Of a DNA stretch of 64,000 bases, positions 9,385 to 54,787 are shown piece by piece. Position numbers and translations under genes: made by a program. Source of the stretch: Clostridia bacterium (GTDB taxonomy: Bacteria; Bacillota; Clostridia; CAKSNL01; HGM11501). The stretch's first letter is position 1, and each line of letters starts with the position of its first letter. The notes below the pieces were generated by a model. The model searched no databases and had not been told where the DNA came from. It worked only from the letters and a program-made list of their open reading frames with translations. The DNA lies in contig JAFQQJ010000031.1 of NCBI GenBank assembly GCA_017411325.1, positions 1 through 64,000 of the forward strand. The letters run 5' to 3'.

Positions 9385-9412
9385 TTGACTTTTGAAAAAA
9401 ATATGTTATAAT
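9385..9412 (+). promoter_or_regulatory. Promoter of OLE RNA and the oapA-dxs operon
   Basis: TTGACT (9385-9390), 16-bp spacer, TATAAT (9407-9412), predicting a start near 9419, where the structured RNA begins. Confidence 0.8.
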
Positions 9413-9415
9413 ATA

Positions 9416-10012
9416 GGAAGGTGGCGCAGTATTCTAGTCAGTACTTGCTGTTCTGAAGGCGGTCGTAAAAAGCCGCTTAAGGGCACATCGATGAAGTTCC
9501 TGGTGCTTGCTTCCGATGCCGGTCGGGGGTGTGTGCTGGGAGTTAAGGACTGGGGGCGGACCGCAATGGCATGCGGCGCATGACCCTCTTTCCGTGGAGA
9601 CTTTACTTTGTGGTTAATGCGGACACAATTTAGCTACGGGTAAGGATTAAACCTGCCATGCAGTGCTTTTCTGTGCTGTGGGTAGCGTAGCCTGCCTTGA
9701 GTGGGTATGTAGGATAGCGGACAGACAGCACCCTCTTGGCCGAGAGAGTGAGGTTATAGCTTCTTGAAAGCATATCTGCAAAAGAGGATAGGAACGGTTT
9801 TGTGCTGTGAAGGAAAACTTCTAGACTGTACCTTTTGTGGTGCAGGAAGGATTGTAGTGCGGACTTAGTGGCAATTCGGTAATGTCTAAGGCGACTTGAC
9901 AAGGGCTGATTTAAAGGGAAACCGCTCCCATCGGCGACGGGGGAGGATCAGGGCGGGAAATCCGACCGAACCTATGCCGCAAAATTTACTTCTTGCATTG
10001 CCACCTCATTTT
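9416..10012 (+). ncRNA. ole: OLE RNA (ornate, large, extremophilic RNA)
   Basis: About 595 nt without a credible reading frame, locally GC-rich, between a consensus promoter and oapA. The ends can pair: GGTGGC (9420-9425) with GCCACC (10000-10005), closing the molecule as expected for P1. Internal complementary blocks are frequent; the 3' part contains GGCGACGGGGGAGGATCAGG and GGGCGGGAAATCCGACCG, the kind of highly conserved, base-rich segment known from OLE RNAs. Length (family about 600 nt) and gene order (OLE, oapA, dxs, tlyA) match the known Bacillus and clostridial loci. OLE RNAs form membrane-associated ribonucleoprotein particles with OapA and help cells cope with stresses such as cold and ethanol. 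Sequence homology was judged by eye and context, not by covariance model. Confidence 0.85.
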
Positions 10013-10016
10013 TTAA

Positions 10017-10045
10017 TCCTTGCGGGGGAAAGCATTTCCCGCGAT
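10017..10045 (+). terminator. Hairpin between OLE RNA and oapA
   Basis: GCGGG(G)GAAA-GCA-TTTCCCGC, followed by GATTTATTT rather than a clean T-run. Probably a 3' boundary, processing site or weak terminator dividing free OLE RNA from the oapA-dxs messenger. Confidence 0.5.
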
Positions 10046-10068
10046 TTATTTATGGAGTGTGATTTTTT

Positions 10069-10677
10069 TTGGATACTGTCCGAAGTAGTAAGCCCGATCC
10101 TCAGGAAAAGGCTTTGAAACAAAAGCGTAAATATTTAAAATGGGCATTTTTAAGTATGCTTCTGACTTTTTCGCTTTCAGTACTTATCAACATCGTTTCG
10201 GAGATTGCCATAAAGGGCGCTCCGGCAGGAATTGCACTTTGCGTTTTGCTTGCAATCATTTTAATAGGCGTTCTTTTCGATATTGTGGGAACTGCGGCTA
10301 CCGCGGCGGAGGAAGCACCCTTTCATTCCATGGCATCAAGAAAGGTAAAGGGCGCGGCGAAAGGTATCGCTCTTCTTCGTAATGCGGAACGTGTTTCCAA
10401 TATCTGTAACGATGTAATAGGTGACATCTGCGGTATCGTTTCGGGTTCAACCACTGCTGTTATTGTAGGAATGCTTTTTGTGAAAAATTCGGATATGGCG
10501 TTCTGGGGCGGTATTGTTGTCACAGCATGTGTTGCATCTTTAACCGTAGGAGGTAAGGCCTTCGGTAAGGGAATTGCCATTTCCAAGAGCAATGATATAG
10601 TGTTCATGGTTGCCAAAGCACTTTCTGTTTTTGAGAAGGATGCGAAAACTAATGGAAAAAAGAAAAATACTAAATGA
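10069..10677 (+). CDS. oapA: OLE-associated membrane protein OapA
   Basis: 202 residues from TTG 10069, with GGAG 11 bases upstream. Four hydrophobic segments (about 25-42, 52-76, 120-138, 144-160) separated by basic loops make it an integral membrane protein with cytoplasmic charged ends (KQKRKYLK; KTNGKKKNTK). The DxxxD motif characteristic of OapA is D115-VIG-D119, preceded by the conserved segment SRKVKGAAKGIALLRNAERV. OapA binds OLE RNA and holds it at the membrane; its position directly after OLE and before dxs is the standard arrangement. It overlaps the dxs start by 26 bases. Annotated here by gene order, length, topology and motif. Confidence 0.88.
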   Translation: MDTVRSSKPDPQEKALKQKRKYLKWAFLSMLLTFSLSVLINIVSEIAIKGAPAGIALCVLLAIILIGVLFDIVGTAATAAEEAPFHSMASRKVKGAAKGIALLRNAERVSNICNDVIGDICGIVSGSTTAVIVGMLFVKNSDMAFWGGIVVTACVASLTVGGKAFGKGIAISKSNDIVFMVAKALSVFEKDAKTNGKKKNTK

Positions 10678-12514
10678 AAATTTAACACACGATGACTTAA
10701 AAGACCTTGATTTTGAGGGGCTTACTATGCTTTCTTCCGAAATCAGGGACTTTTTGATTGCCGGCGTTTCCAAAACAGGCGGACATCTTGCATCTAACCT
10801 GGGTGTTGTTGAGCTTACGGTTATGCTGCACAGATGTTTTGATTTTAAAAAGAACGACAGAATTATTTTTGATGTGGGACATCAGAGCTATGTCCACAAA
10901 ATTCTGACCGGCAGAATGAATGGGTTTGAAAATTTGCGTAAGACCGGTGGAATGTCGGGCTTTCCGAGACGTGAGGAAAGTGAGACCGACCTTTTTGATA
11001 CAGGTCACTCCGGCACAAGCCTTTCTCTGGCGGACGGAATTGCCACGGCAAAAATGCATACGGGCGAAGAAGGCTGCACCGTTGCGTTAATCGGTGACGG
11101 TGCTTTTACCGGCGGTCTTTGCTATGAGGCATTAAATAACATCGGAAACACGAAAAAAAATATTCTTATCATATTAAATGATAACGGAATGTCCATATCG
11201 GAGAATGTCGGCGCTGTGTCAAATCTCCTTACAAAGGTAAGGGCAAGCAAGGGGTATAACAGGGCAAAGTCCGGTGTCAAGGATGCTCTCGGCTTGTTAA
11301 AGGGCATCGGCCCCGCACTGGAAAAAGGAATTCGCCACATAAAGAACGGACTTAAAGGGGCTATAGTTCCTTCGGTATTCGCCGAAAGTCTCGGAATAAC
11401 CTATTTAGGACCTGTGGACGGGCATAACGTCAAACAGCTTGAATACTACATAAGCAGTGCGAAAAATATCGAAGGCCCTGTGCTTCTTCATGTGAAAACC
11501 GTGAAGGGAAAAGGCTATGCCCATGCAGAGGGAGAACCTTCAAAATTCCACGGCGTATCAGACTTTGAGGTGGACAAGGGTATAACCCACAGCATAAAGT
11601 CGGATTTTTCGGGTGCTTTCGGGATGGAGCTTTGTCTTCTTGCAATGAAAAACGAGCGTATCGTTGCGGTATGCCCTGCAATGACAAAGGGCTGTGGCCT
11701 TTCGGGCTTTGCAGAAAGCTTTCCCGACCGTTTTTACGATTGCGGAATTGCGGAGGAGCACGCGGTTACCTTTGCCGCCGGCCTTGCAAAGGGCGGGCTT
11801 GTTCCCGTTGTGGCTACCTACTCAACCTTTATGCAAAGAGCGTACGACGAAATATGGCACGATGTTGTCATGAATAATCTTCATGTGGTTTTCTGCCTTG
11901 ACAGGGCGGGGCTTCCCGGTGCGGACGGAAAAACCCACCAGGGAATTTATGACTTATCCTATCTCGGAAATATTCCGAATCTTCCAGTGCTTTCTCCGTC
12001 GTCCTTTGCGGAGCTTTCAAAAATGCTCCGTTTTGCGGTGGAGGAATATGACGGCCCCATAGCAATCCGCTATCCAAAGGGCTCCGACAGGGAATGCGGC
12101 TTTTCATCCTTTACCTTCGGAAAGGCAGAGCTTTGCAAAGAGGGGACAGATATAACGGTTGTTTCGGAAGGGCTTATGCTTAAGGATGTGCTGGATGCGG
12201 CACTTGAGGCTGAAAAAGAGGGTGTGCGGGCAGAGGTAATAAAGCTTTCCACCGTAACTCCTGTTGATTTGGAAGAAATAAAAAAATCCGTATCCGGGAC
12301 AGGCTGTCTCTTAACGGTAGAGGCAAATGTCATTCGTGGCGGAATGGGTGAGGCGATTTTCTCGGCTCTTCGTGCAAAGGGCGGAATAAAAGCCTTCCCC
12401 AATGCATTTATCGAGCACGGAAAGACCGGGGATATTTTAAGTGCATACGGTCTTGACAAAGAAGGAATAAAAGAAGCCATCATAAAAGAAGCGGGTGCAA
12501 AAAATGAGGCTTGA
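10652..12514 (+). CDS. dxs: 1-deoxy-D-xylulose-5-phosphate synthase
   Basis: 620 residues from ATG 10652, usual length. Thiamine-diphosphate enzyme that condenses pyruvate and glyceraldehyde-3-phosphate in the first step of the MEP isoprenoid pathway. Visible motifs: DVGHQSYVHKILTGR, the cofactor motif GDGAFTGGLCYEALNN, the catalytic glutamate region CGIAEEHAVTFAAG and DRAGLPGADGKTHQG. In-frame codons further upstream lie inside oapA and lack a ribosome-binding site; AGAAGGA at 10634 supports ATG 10652. It overlaps oapA by 26 bases and tlyA by 11, indicating one polycistronic unit with OLE RNA. Confidence 0.96.
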   Translation: MEKRKILNENLTHDDLKDLDFEGLTMLSSEIRDFLIAGVSKTGGHLASNLGVVELTVMLHRCFDFKKNDRIIFDVGHQSYVHKILTGRMNGFENLRKTGGMSGFPRREESETDLFDTGHSGTSLSLADGIATAKMHTGEEGCTVALIGDGAFTGGLCYEALNNIGNTKKNILIILNDNGMSISENVGAVSNLLTKVRASKGYNRAKSGVKDALGLLKGIGPALEKGIRHIKNGLKGAIVPSVFAESLGITYLGPVDGHNVKQLEYYISSAKNIEGPVLLHVKTVKGKGYAHAEGEPSKFHGVSDFEVDKGITHSIKSDFSGAFGMELCLLAMKNERIVAVCPAMTKGCGLSGFAESFPDRFYDCGIAEEHAVTFAAGLAKGGLVPVVATYSTFMQRAYDEIWHDVVMNNLHVVFCLDRAGLPGADGKTHQGIYDLSYLGNIPNLPVLSPSSFAELSKMLRFAVEEYDGPIAIRYPKGSDRECGFSSFTFGKAELCKEGTDITVVSEGLMLKDVLDAALEAEKEGVRAEVIKLSTVTPVDLEEIKKSVSGTGCLLTVEANVIRGGMGEAIFSALRAKGGIKAFPNAFIEHGKTGDILSAYGLDKEGIKEAIIKEAGAKNEA

Positions 12515-13274
12515 CTTATATATGGTTGAAAACTCTCTGGCAAGAAGCAGGGAGCAGGCAAAGGAATTGATTCTGGCAGGCAAGGTGATGCTGGACGGTA
12601 AGGTATGTGAAAAGCCGAGCACTTCCGTTTTTAATCAGACGGTTACCGTAAGTGAAGAAGAAAGCTTTGTGGGGCGCGGGGCGAAAAAGCTTCTTAAGGC
12701 ATTTTCGGTTTTTCATCTTGATGTGAAAGAGAAAATATGTATAGACGCAGGCGCATCCACAGGGGGCTTCACCGAAATTATGCTTAAAAACGGTGCATCG
12801 AAGGTTTACGCCGTGGACGTAGGACAGGATCAGCTTGCAGAAAGCCTTAAGGCAGATGAAAGAGTTATAAATCTTGAAAAGACCGATATAAGAAATCTGG
12901 AGCTTTCGGAAAAGGCGGATTTTTTCACGGCGGATGTGTCGTTTATTTCCCTTACCCAGGTGCTTTATCATCTTTTCCGCCTTTCGGGAGAGGGAGCCTT
13001 TGGTGTATGCCTTGTAAAGCCTCAGTTTGAGGCGGGGCGAGGGTTTGTCGGCAAAAAAGGTGTGGTAAAGGATAAAAAAGCACATATAAGAGTGCTTTCC
13101 GATATAACGGAATACGCAAAGGGCATAGGCTTTTCCGTAAAGGGACTTACTCCGTCGCCCATCACGGGACAAAACGGAAACATAGAATATCTTTTATATT
13201 TAAGTAAAAGCGGGGAAGACGGAGAATATTCCGTGGAAAAAACCGCTGCGGATGCATTTGGAGGGAATTTATGA
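12504..13274 (+). CDS. tlyA: TlyA-family rRNA (cytidine-2'-O)-methyltransferase
   Basis: 256 residues from ATG 12504 (MRLDLYMVENSLARS). Residues 1-60 are an S4 RNA-binding domain; residues about 60-250 are an FtsJ-like Rossmann methyltransferase with the SAM motif CIDAGASTGGFTE and the substrate-side motif KPQFEAGR. Homologues 2'-O-methylate 16S and 23S rRNA. It is the usual neighbour after dxs (yqxC in Bacillus). Overlaps dxs by 11 bases and the next gene by four (ATGA). Once annotated as hemolysin A, a role not supported by the sequence. Confidence 0.93.
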   Translation: MRLDLYMVENSLARSREQAKELILAGKVMLDGKVCEKPSTSVFNQTVTVSEEESFVGRGAKKLLKAFSVFHLDVKEKICIDAGASTGGFTEIMLKNGASKVYAVDVGQDQLAESLKADERVINLEKTDIRNLELSEKADFFTADVSFISLTQVLYHLFRLSGEGAFGVCLVKPQFEAGRGFVGKKGVVKDKKAHIRVLSDITEYAKGIGFSVKGLTPSPITGQNGNIEYLLYLSKSGEDGEYSVEKTAADAFGGNL

Positions 13275-20019: not shown

Positions 20020-21399
20020 TTATACATTAAAAATTATTTGTGCTACATTAAAATAAATTAAAAGTGAAAGCGAGTCAACGATGGTTGTGATGAAGGGCGA
20101 TGCCATAATTGCGGGATCAAAGCCCAGCTTTTTTGCCCCCACGGGAAGCAGACAACCGATGGTTTTTGCAAAAATTACCGTAATCAAAAGACTTATGCTT
20201 ACGGTAAGCGCCATATCGATAACAAGGCTTAAAGCAAATTCGCCGCCGCCGAAATAATATTTCATAATAAAAATTCTTATGAAGTTGACAAGTGCAAGGG
20301 AAACTCCGCAAAGGAGGGAAATCCTTATTTCCTTAAACCACGCTTTTAATACATCAAGACCTTTAAGCTCACCCAGCGCAAGACAGCGGATAATAAGAAT
20401 TGAGGTCTGAGAACCGCAGTTACCGCCGGTGTTCATCAGCATTGGTATAAAGCCGATGAGAAAGCCGAGAGAAGATAATCTGGATTCAAAGGAATCGATA
20501 ATCGCACCGGTAATCGCGGCGGAAAGCATAAGTATCATAAGCCAGGGAATTCTGTTTGCAAAGTGACGGAAAACGCCTGTCTTAAGGTAGGAATCCTCGG
20601 AAGGCGTAACCGCTGCCATAATTTCAAAGTCCTCGGTTGTCTCTTCTTCAATAACGGTTACGGCGTCATCAACGGTAATGATGCCGACAATTCTGTTCTC
20701 GGTATCAACCACCGGCATTGCGAGTAAACCGTACTTTGTAAACATCGCGGCAACCTCTTCCTTATCGTCACCGGTATGACAGAAGACGATTCGTTCATCC
20801 ATAATGTCGCTGATTAAGGTGTCCTCGCTTGCAAGAATGATGTCCTTAAGGGAGAGTGTACCGATTAAAACTCTGTCCTTTTCCGTAACATAAAAAGTGG
20901 AAATGTCCTCAACCGAATCACCGAATCGTCTGATATGGACAAGAGCACCCTTCACGGTCATTTCCTTTTTAAGGTCGATAAATTCGGTGTTCATTAAGCT
21001 TCCCGCCGAATCCTCGGGATAGCGGAGAAGCTGATTTATCGATTTTCTGGTATCGGGATCTGTATGCTTTAAGATACGGTTTACCATATTGGCAGGCATT
21101 TCCTCAAGCAGATCCACCGTATCATCCACGAAAAGCTCGTTTAAAATATTGTGAAGCTCTCTGTCCGTAATGGCAGAAATTACACTTTCCTGCAAATCCG
21201 AGTCCATGGAGGCGAAAATTTCCGCCGCAGGCTCTTTCGGGATAATGCGGAAAATCTTAACCGCATCCTCCTCTTTTAATTCTGCGAGAATTTCTGCAAT
21301 ATCAACCTCGTTGAACTCTTTTAAAATTTCTTTTATTTCAGAAAATTTTCTCTCGGAAAGCAGCAGGGATAAATTTTCCGTAATTTCTTTTTCAAACAT
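20020..21399 (-). CDS. mgtE: Magnesium transporter MgtE
   Basis: 459 residues from ATG 21399 (MFEKEITENL). Residues about 1-130 form the superhelical N domain (FNEVDIAEILAEL; LLEEMPANMVNRIL), 130-255 the paired CBS domains that sense cytosolic Mg2+ (VLIGTLSLKDIIL; RIVGIITVDDAVTVI), then five transmembrane helices with the pore segment GFIPMLMNTGGNCGSQTS and KTIGCLLPVGAKKLGFDPA. Channel-like Mg2+ uptake gated by its own CBS domains. The messenger begins with a leader of about 150 nt containing a 25-codon ORF and ends in a terminator-like hairpin right before the ATG, so expression is probably attenuated. Confidence 0.95.
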   Translation of the reverse strand: MFEKEITENLSLLLSERKFSEIKEILKEFNEVDIAEILAELKEEDAVKIFRIIPKEPAAEIFASMDSDLQESVISAITDRELHNILNELFVDDTVDLLEEMPANMVNRILKHTDPDTRKSINQLLRYPEDSAGSLMNTEFIDLKKEMTVKGALVHIRRFGDSVEDISTFYVTEKDRVLIGTLSLKDIILASEDTLISDIMDERIVFCHTGDDKEEVAAMFTKYGLLAMPVVDTENRIVGIITVDDAVTVIEEETTEDFEIMAAVTPSEDSYLKTGVFRHFANRIPWLMILMLSAAITGAIIDSFESRLSSLGFLIGFIPMLMNTGGNCGSQTSILIIRCLALGELKGLDVLKAWFKEIRISLLCGVSLALVNFIRIFIMKYYFGGGEFALSLVIDMALTVSISLLITVIFAKTIGCLLPVGAKKLGFDPAIMASPFITTIVDSLSLLIYFNVAQIIFNV

Positions 21400-21553
21400 A
21401 AAAAAACCGCCTTTCCGCACAGGCGAAAAAGCGTAACAAAAGGAGACAGGGGATTACCTGCCGCTTCCGGACGCCTGACAACCGTGCGATATTTTATTGA
21501 AAATACATAATCGACTACTGTCCGCGTCCATAAAAACACCTCCGTTTTTTAAT
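21400..21553 (-). promoter_or_regulatory. mgtE leader with terminator-like hairpin and leader ORF
   Basis: The minus-strand leader contains CGCCT-GTGCGGAA-AGGCG followed by GTTTTTTT (about 21400-21425), whose T-run abuts the mgtE ATG. CAGGCG at 21477-21472 can pair with CGCCTG of the terminator 5' arm, giving an alternative fold. A short ORF with a strong GGAGGTG site occupies the first half. The sequence does not match the M-box consensus I know. A Mg2+- or translation-responsive attenuator is the natural inference. Confidence 0.55.
21454..21531 (-). CDS. Putative leader peptide upstream of mgtE
   Basis: 25 codons from ATG 21531 to TAA, preceded by GGAGGTG at ideal distance, the best ribosome-binding site in the leader. 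It encodes MDADSSRLCIFN, then a cysteine- and glycine-containing tail ending SGSGR. The distal codons contain the CAGGCG sequence that can pair with the terminator arm, so ribosome position could decide termination. Too short for homology; support is the start signal and the position. Confidence 0.5.
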   Translation of the reverse strand: MDADSSRLCIFNKISHGCQASGSGR

Positions 21554-53753: not shown

Positions 53754-54578
53754 ATGGATATATATAAGATAAGTAAGGAAGAATGGGCAAAAAATTCTAA
53801 AATTCCTTTCAGAGTAGCGGAAAAAGCCACGGATATGCACGTTGAAATGGCACGATTAATGGCGGATGTGCTTAAGGAAAACAACGCCAAGGGAGAAAAG
53901 ACAGTAATAATTCTTCCCGTTGGCCCCATAATGCAGTATGAACCCTTTGCAAAGGTGATAAATGAGGAAAAAATCAGCCTTAAAAACGCCTGGTTTATAA
54001 ATATGGATGAGTACCTTACGGCGGATGGCAAGTGGATTGACTATGACAATAATCTTTCCTTCCGTGCTGTTATGGACAGACTTCTCTATTCAAAAATTGA
54101 TGCAGAACTGGTTATGCCCGAAAGCCAGCGCCTTTTCCCCGAGCCCGGCAAGGAAGCGGAAATCGATGCATTGATTGAATCCTTCGGCAAGGTTGATATC
54201 TGCCTGACGGGTGTGGGCATCAACGGACATATCGCATTTAATGAACCCCCCGAGGCGGACGAGGCAATCACTGATGAGGAGTTTAAGAATATCGGAACAA
54301 GATGCTTGAACATCGCAAGGGAAACCATAGTTAATAACGGCCTTCACAAGGTTGCAGGAGCTCTTGACATTTTCCCGAGAAGATGTATAACCATTGGTAT
54401 GAAGCAGCTTCTTAAAGCTAAGGTGTTAAAGGTTTACCTTTACTGCGACTGGCAGTGGGGCATTGCAAGAAAAATTTCTCTTGCCGATGAATCAAAAACT
54501 ATGCCTGCATCCTTCCTTCAGAGCCATCCCAACAGCGAAATGGTTATAACAAAGGATTTATACGAATTCATGCTGTAA
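53754..54578 (+). CDS. Divergent glucosamine-6-phosphate deaminase-like protein (NagB/6-phosphogluconolactonase superfamily)
   Basis: 274 residues. Retains NMDEYL (about 84-89, catalytic Asp) and GVGINGHIAFNEP (about 151-163, catalytic His) of NagB, but the phosphate-binding GLATGSTP loop is replaced by ILPVGPIMQY. It is longer than typical NagB and has a Trp-rich segment (CDWQWGIARKI). Probably converts GlcN-6-P, or an altered substrate, to a ketose phosphate. Last gene of the operon, followed by a terminator. Confidence 0.8.
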   Translation: MDIYKISKEEWAKNSKIPFRVAEKATDMHVEMARLMADVLKENNAKGEKTVIILPVGPIMQYEPFAKVINEEKISLKNAWFINMDEYLTADGKWIDYDNNLSFRAVMDRLLYSKIDAELVMPESQRLFPEPGKEAEIDALIESFGKVDICLTGVGINGHIAFNEPPEADEAITDEEFKNIGTRCLNIARETIVNNGLHKVAGALDIFPRRCITIGMKQLLKAKVLKVYLYCDWQWGIARKISLADESKTMPASFLQSHPNSEMVITKDLYEFML

Positions 54579-54613: not shown

Positions 54614-54786
54614 AGTGAAATATTTCGCTTAAGCTCAATGTGAAATAATTTTTATCAAAATTGTGAAATATGATGCCTTGCATCAAGTGAAATGAAATAA
54701 ATCCAAACGCCCGCAGGCATTTCACATTGCGAAGCAATATTTCACGCCCGAAGGGTATTTCACAAATCAGAATGATTTATTTCGTT
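54614..54786. repeat. Mirror-symmetric multi-hairpin array with GTGAAAT/ATTTCAC spacers
   Basis: GTGAAAT occurs at 54615, 54640, 54663 and 54687; its complement ATTTCAC occurs at 54719, 54739 and 54757, with ATTTCG at 54779. Between the spacers lie small hairpins, on the right all with a GAA triloop: ATTGC-GAA-GCAAT, CCC-GAA-GGG and AAATCA-GAA-TGATTT; on the left TGATGC-CTT-GCATCA and AATTTT-TATC-AAAATT. The spacers can pair pairwise across the centre, giving a large branched structure. No coding potential. Family not recognised. Confidence 0.7.
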
Positions 54787-54787
54787 C

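Follow-up and report, generated by a model that had tools for sequence, protein, structure and literature searches.

OLE RNA, a large non-coding RNA, is reported to be a membrane-bound dimer which is held by the protein OapA and accompanied by OapB, OapC and bS21; cells that lose the complex are reported to be impaired in their response to Mg2+, cold, alcohol and carbon source (PMC12265935, PMC9723947, PMC12054373, PMC12286853, PMC10898510). A total of 2,822 OLE hits has been reported in Bacillota, gut clades included (PMC11332333). Here, a window of 64,000 nucleotides was analysed, that is the whole stretch formed by positions 1 to 64,000 (forward strand) of contig JAFQQJ010000031.1 from a Clostridia bacterium (assembly GCA_017411325.1). 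It very likely holds a complete OLE ribonucleoprotein locus, the particle of which would be assembled as proposed and would play a role in Mg2+ and stress handling. With the OLE systems of Halalkalibacterium halodurans and Clostridium acetobutylicum (RF01071) the locus shares the full-length RNA structure, the conserved positions, the GGCC of loop L9.3, the A-run of P4, the gene order ole-oapA-dxs-tlyA, the DxxxD motif of OapA and the presence of OapB and OapC genes in the genome bin. It differs from both by an apparently mesophilic host and by an inverted P4 closing pair with C61 replaced by G, and from H. halodurans also by the lack of the CCUCC anti-Shine-Dalgarno core.

An earlier note on this DNA had read about 595 nucleotides of paired non-coding sequence with GGTGGC and GCCACC at its ends as OLE RNA. 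The covariance search that was to put this reading at risk gave an overwhelming match instead: with cmscan, RF01071 scored 473.7 bits (E 5.3e-137; gathering score 50) over model positions 1-616 of 616, and a covariance scan of the whole window returned OLE at the identical place and score. The two closing repeats are present at 9420-9425 (GGTGGC) and 10000-10005 (GCCACC). OLE had no second match in the 2.94-Mb bin, and sequence data could hardly give a surer assignment to the OLE class. The features of the RNA are the following.

9405-10020, plus strand: ole gene, OLE RNA of full-length type, by covariance match to Rfam RF01071
9458-9477, plus strand: P4 hairpin with A-run loop, from the OLE alignment; closing wobble inverted (U-G for G-U), loop C61 changed to G
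9547-9593, plus strand: P6 stem, the region of the published bS21 site (PMC12054373), from the alignment; GACCC kept
9738-9741, plus strand: GGCC palindrome in loop L9.3; 98 of the 106 aligned sequences have exactly this GGCC
9888-9940, plus strand: 3' domain hairpins with GGCGAC loops, from the alignment; region of the published OapB site, putative P12.2/P13

The alignment of 106 OLE sequences comprised the window, two relatives, the 30 top-scoring loci of the class and 73 of 80 named loci, the latter being the best 80 of 568 confirmed candidates. Left out were four named loci with a partial OLE at a contig start (L043, L050, L070, L074) and three with no OLE (L089, L110, L119); two of the rows, L003 and L042, stem from one 7959-base contig, as judged by length and identity. 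The window OLE, which is 96.9% identical to that of a congener (616 positions) and 82.0% to that of a family relative, keeps 198 of the 201 positions conserved in at least 95% of the sequences. The departures at the near-universal positions 61, 117 and 406, together with two mismatched pairs of P6 in the covariance alignment, could be taken as signs of an RNA that has decayed or is diverging and no longer works. All three changes are, however, common to the almost identical congener (the one at position 61 also to the family relative), the P4 closing pair was changed on both sides, and oapA is open over 202 codons; loss of function is regarded as highly improbable. Of the 106 sequences, 100 close P4 with G-U and 4 with U-G, while position 61 is C in 102 and G in 4. 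The P4 and C61 changes represent few events, since two of the four rows concerned (L003, L042) are one contig.

Compared with the model, the window OLE has no large deletion. It spans the whole model including P7, P8 and P9, and was thus assigned to the full-length type and not to the reported variants 1 and 2 (TANB77, RF39), which are shortened (PMC11332333). These variants are like the window in occurring in uncultured gut Bacillota, and unlike it in that TANB77 and RF39 are described as largely devoid of OapB and OapC (PMC11332333). A 381-nt OLE scoring 253 bits was observed in genome G371 (L134, 1969-2349, minus strand); it is devoid of distal P5 and of nearly all of model positions ~249-435, L9.3 included. 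Both sequences predicted to make dimer contacts, UAAAAA in P4 and GGCC in L9.3, are present in the window OLE, the latter being reported as the kissing-loop bridge of the dimer (PMC12286853). An anti-Shine-Dalgarno mimic, CCUCC, has been described in P6 of H. halodurans, and bS21 is reported to bind OLE mutants with an altered mimic too (PMC12054373). The exact core is absent from P6 of the window (CCUCU instead) and from 104 of the 106 aligned sequences. The mimic found no support as a class-wide feature and was not used for assigning OLE membership, because only 2 of the 106 OLEs carry CCTCC.

The genes that follow ole, and the signals on its two sides, are given below.

9385-9412, plus strand: sigma-70-type promoter-like site of ole, TTGACT-16-TATAAT, the second hexamer preceded by TG; match to the consensus at 11 of 12 bases
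10020-10044, plus strand: terminator-like hairpin between ole and oapA, by sequence inspection
10069-10677, plus strand: oapA, coding for a CNNM-like membrane protein of 202 residues, TTG start, by OapA alignment and predicted fold
10652-12514, plus strand: dxs (1-deoxy-D-xylulose-5-phosphate synthase), TIGR00204 with 666 bits, above its cut-off
12504-13274, plus strand: tlyA (rRNA 2'-O-methyltransferase), start ATG 12504 or GTG 12495, TIGR00478 above its cut-off

The order ole-oapA-dxs-tlyA noticed earlier proved to be the standard one among the named loci, with dxs and tlyA both recognised by their profiles (against NF049952, tlyA scored 235.6 bits, under the cut-off of 250). The 26-base overlap of oapA and dxs is likewise present if dxs starts at ATG 10652, the oapA stop lying at 10677, and it is identical in L042. 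In 77 of the 80 named loci ole immediately precedes oapA on the same strand (73 whole, 4 cut at the contig start); dxs is next after oapA in 76, and tlyA downstream in 74, of the 78 loci with room. An OapA open reading frame also adjoins OLE in all 33 loci examined, the window included, 30 of which were the top-scoring ones of 151 carriers in the class. No OLE was found beside oapA in L089, L110 and L119, all at contig starts. While L119 has almost no room before oapA, an oapA-dxs-tlyA cluster without OLE is preceded by 432 bases in L089 and 259 bases in L110 ahead of the presumed oapA start; insertion or misassembly are candidate readings for these two regions (1-432 and 1-259). The end of a transposase-like open reading frame was observed within the bases before oapA in L089. 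In three further genomes (G110, G158, G390) ole and oapA are on different contigs in what look like contig breaks.

Such a stable order, together with the report that a single polycistronic RNA covers the cluster in H. halodurans (PMC12265935), would also suit an RNA of about 600 bases acting mainly in cis, as a leader that controls oapA-dxs-tlyA, and not as a separate particle acting in trans. Against a leader stands the separation of ole from the only listed OapA in five genomes of the class: in G173, G313, G325 and G343 the two are on different contigs (contig breaks being possible for some), and in G349 they are ~203 kb apart on one contig, showing that the pair is not always linked. The terminator-like hairpin that closes the window RNA also argues against it, as do the published binding of OapB, OapC and bS21 and the growth phenotypes of ole mutants (PMC12054373, PMC9723947). 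A mainly cis-acting leader is considered very unlikely, and a trans-acting particle is preferred. Both signals claimed by the earlier note were found again, the promoter as a candidate from its match to consensus and the hairpin (10017-10045 in the note) at nearly the same place. The hairpin as a conserved 3' element of OLE was rejected, its sequence not being common to the relatives G001 and G002.

The protein encoded at 10069 aligns with 63 OapAs from named loci carrying OLE (three of them cut at the contig end), with 18 invariant columns, and the comparison with known OapA proteins, the second of the proposed refuting tests, left the reading standing. Of the 81 sequences from the window and the 80 named loci, 64 entered this alignment: L049 and L117 gave no usable OapA frame, and 15 others were removed to thin it, including L089, L110 and L119, which have no adjoining OLE. 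The DxxxD motif reported earlier is D115-VIG-D119, and both aspartates are invariant in the 64 sequences. Both relatives share the TTG start, and one of them has a further in-frame GTG upstream. The T-run where oapA begins (8 T in the window, 7 T in G001) raised the question of a frameshift, which was rejected because all three genomes have a TTG start in the correct frame.

No Pfam or NCBIfam match of the window OapA was obtained at E 0.001. In a permissive Pfam search (E 10) CNNM was the best row at E 0.006, followed by two others at E 0.3 and 0.53, and no CBS or CorC domain was matched over the 202 residues. The AlphaFold2 model (mean confidence, pLDDT, 89.9) is mostly helical and of membrane type, and its predicted fold is CNNM-like, which fits what has been published on OapA of H. 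halodurans (PMC11332333). Foldseek gave the model no match at E 0.001, the best being CNNM/CorB at E 5.9e-3 with a probability of 1.00. In structural alignment the four best rows were CNNM/CorB with Z 13.3, 12.8, 12.0 and 11.9, the next reaching 8.2, although the structural aligner cautions that helical models can reach a Z of about 13 by common arrangement. Smac/DIABLO (Z 8.2) and Fluc (Z 7.7), which ranked under CNNM, were regarded as helical background. OapA would thus resemble the MpfA/CorB CNNM Mg2+ exporters in predicted fold (Z 13.3, root-mean-square deviation 2.5 over 130 residues of 7m1t); it differs from them by its 202 residues, the missing CBS/CorC match and the DxxxD motif, and no CNNM match accompanies it in the bin.

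The partner genes, which the earlier note proposed to look for elsewhere in the genome, are both in the bin. The OapB gene was found by synteny on contig C64, between map and infA (neighbours named by inspection). Its only PDB match at E 0.001 was OLE-associated protein B (7k9b, E 3.5e-12, query residues 7-89), and it has no Pfam or NCBIfam match. A Pfam search for KOW, tried as a route to OapB, missed it, the three matches being an rplX-like and two NusG-like open reading frames as judged by neighbourhood. The OapC gene lies on contig C25 before rpsL and fusA (again named by inspection); its best PDB match was YbxF (E 1.7e-10), and the profiles PRK13602 (72.1 bits) and YlxQ (30.5 bits), both under their cut-offs, point to YbxF and not YlxQ. 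The gene of bS21, rpsU, was matched by TIGR00030 on C25 as well; rpsU and oapC were observed 2.2 kb apart (L009, 2559-5206).

In the literature, MpfA-type exporters are described as less common among OLE carriers. No CNNM/MpfA match was found in the window's bin, a like search being positive in 12 of 14 control genomes. Of 391 genomes of the class, 151 carry OLE, and 71 of these have a strong CNNM match (best E < 1e-15); among the 240 non-carriers, 218 have one (Fisher p 9e-22, uncorrected for kinship); 44 weaker matches were all in OapA carriers.

Several points weigh against a complete particle standing in for such an exporter, beginning with the two reservations on the predicted fold given above. 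OLE is not a strict MpfA substitute, because 71 of the 151 carriers in the class have a strong CNNM match. The window itself holds a gene for an MgtE-type Mg2+ channel with a CBS domain (20020-21420, minus strand), ~10 kb from OLE; this proximity was judged a coincidence. The contamination of the bin is 5.09%, and two nusG-rplA-rplJ regions (L010, L011; contigs C10, C4) are a sign of it. Tetranucleotide composition was compared for 14 of 17 stretches, the short L158, L159 and L163 being left out. The OapB contig C64 correlated with the window at 0.85-0.93, while the 16.8-kb contig C25 reached only 0.752, and the membership of OapC and rpsU in the organism is less sure for this reason. Low values were also obtained for C40 (0.708), C20 (0.784) and one C4 stretch (0.681), a 20-kb piece which holds one of the nusG-rplA-rplJ regions. 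No 16S gene match was found in the bin.

The same figures, 5.09% contamination and 4 of the 14 sampled stretches below r 0.85, could be read to mean that the window's contig is itself a binning contaminant and that the organism has no OLE. The other 10 stretches, however, correlate at r of at least 0.85, and one congener and one family genome carry a matching locus. Such an origin of the contig is regarded as highly improbable, and the locus is taken to belong to the organism.

As for the host, the make-up of its proteins and the G+C content of its tRNAs point to a mesophile, as the earlier note had supposed. The fraction of the residues IVYWREL in 34 window proteins gave an estimated growth temperature of ~36 C, and the four window tRNAs have 56-58% G+C. 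For Dxs this fraction is 0.363 in the window, 0.360 and 0.367 in metagenome-assembled genomes (MAGs) from goat and sheep rectum, 0.373 and 0.367 in Halobacillus and 0.400 in Thermoclostridium. The gut-type genes of the note held in part: a choloylglycine-hydrolase-family enzyme (PF02275) and NanE were recovered, but the nagA-like gene matched only the broad Amidohydro families and the nagB-like open reading frame at 53754 had no Pfam match at E 0.001. A Gut-1 RNA (RF01706, 69.1 bits) was observed beside a tRNA at 54714-54787 (minus strand). An animal gut is plausible as a habitat and fits the choloylglycine-hydrolase-family enzyme, NanE and the Gut-1 RNA.

The nearest named record, among the best 80 of 568, is the uncultured 'Clostridia bacterium' MAG L042 with an OapA 93% identical. 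OLE was found in 151 of the 391 sampled genomes of the class and in three of four genomes of the family, one of the same genus among them; the order sample consists of the identical four. The fourth (G003, 65% complete) gave no OLE and no OapA, and has CNNM matches. The surprise which the earlier note implied at OLE outside extremophiles is not borne out: because OLE is frequent in the class, the gene order is standard and OLE of gut Bacillota has been published (PMC11332333), the locus is unsurprising. It is a standard, ordinary example of a known RNA class found in many anaerobes, gut ones included.

In the proposed mechanism, in which transcription, assembly, membrane site and role of the particle are inferred, ole would probably have a sigma-70-type promoter of its own and be transcribed ahead of oapA-dxs-tlyA and in part jointly with these genes. 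The RNA would fold into the full-length OLE structure and pair with a second copy via the A-rich loops of P4 and the GGCC kissing loop of L9.3, and OapA would hold it at the membrane. OapB is expected to bind the 3' domain, OapC the kink-turn and bS21 the P6 stem. By analogy with H. halodurans, the particle may help against Mg2+ load, cold, solvent and carbon-source stress. Since the bin has OLE and no CNNM match, the particle probably carries part of Mg2+ handling, standing in for the missing MpfA-type exporter.

The dependence of OapA on OLE was followed in the 391 class genomes. None of the 151 OLE carriers was without OapA, and 8 of 159 OapA carriers had no OLE match; these counts leave out G114 and G123 (matches at E 8.7e-5 and 4.8e-5). 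Two of the eight, G166 and G266, are contig ends where cmscan found a 131-base OLE tail; a third, G155, has its OapA match beginning at base 87 of the contig. The remaining five (G007, G099, G170, G270, G302) all belong to g7, a genus of the class with reduced genomes; theirs measure 0.9-1.1 Mb and are 98-100% complete. Using cmscan with permissive filters, no OLE was found up to E 1 within ~3.5 kb around their OapA. A whole-genome search found none up to E 10, which excludes long OLEs only; it is blind to short pieces, since the 131-base tails of G166 and G266 were missed. No strong CNNM match was found in any of the five. The g7 congeners G045 and G285 gave whole-genome OLE matches at E 9.6e-104 and 6.0e-102, and each has two OapAs, one adjoining OLE and one not.

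The seven OLE-distant OapA copies (L127-L133, in G170, G007, G270, G099, G302, G045 and G285) have a proS-like open reading frame upstream in six cases (another gene in G285) and infC-rpmI-rplT-like ones downstream in six (another gene in G302). Genes were named by inspection and, for six copies, by L20-leader matches, all under the Rfam gathering score. The OapA tree unites the seven in a single clade (support 0.973), and the OLE-linked g7 copies are its sister group (0.968). Only inner clades were used, because support for all OapA together was 0.25 with an outgroup of 2 MpfA sequences. The 66 OLE-linked OapAs have 29 columns with conservation of 90% or more; each of 17 is retained by six or all seven of the distant copies, and each of 7 is lost from six or all seven. 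Four of the lost residues, P84, M88, A89 and G162, are kept by both OLE-linked g7 copies and in 63 to 66 of the 66 OLE-linked OapAs; G67, N114 and G161 are lost and not kept by the OLE-linked g7 copies either. The distant copies keep DxxxD, a motif which CNNM domains are described as not having (PMC11332333), and the core residues D71, D115, G118, D119, S125, G126, K163 and K167.

These data may be explained if OLE is a module that can be detached from OapA, the transporter core: g7 would have duplicated OapA; P84, M88, A89 and G162, transferred to the window protein, would mark its probable OLE-docking face; and OapA would be able to work without RNA. We give this proposal an even chance. It draws on one genus with long branches and probably one event, and a highly diverged or short OLE is possible there. 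As far as our searches go, the OLE-free paralogs of g7 are new to the literature, a literature search on OapA, CNNM and paralogs having returned nothing beyond PMC11332333. They bear on the remark in that paper that the RNA and its protein 'might never appear independently'.

The window offers a clean and complete example of OLE in an apparently mesophilic host with no match to an MpfA-type exporter, and speaks against 'extremophilic' as a clue to function, a point already implied by published surveys. For the family, the comparison of OapA with and without OLE provides a short list of residues by which the activity of OapA itself may be separated from the docking of the RNA.

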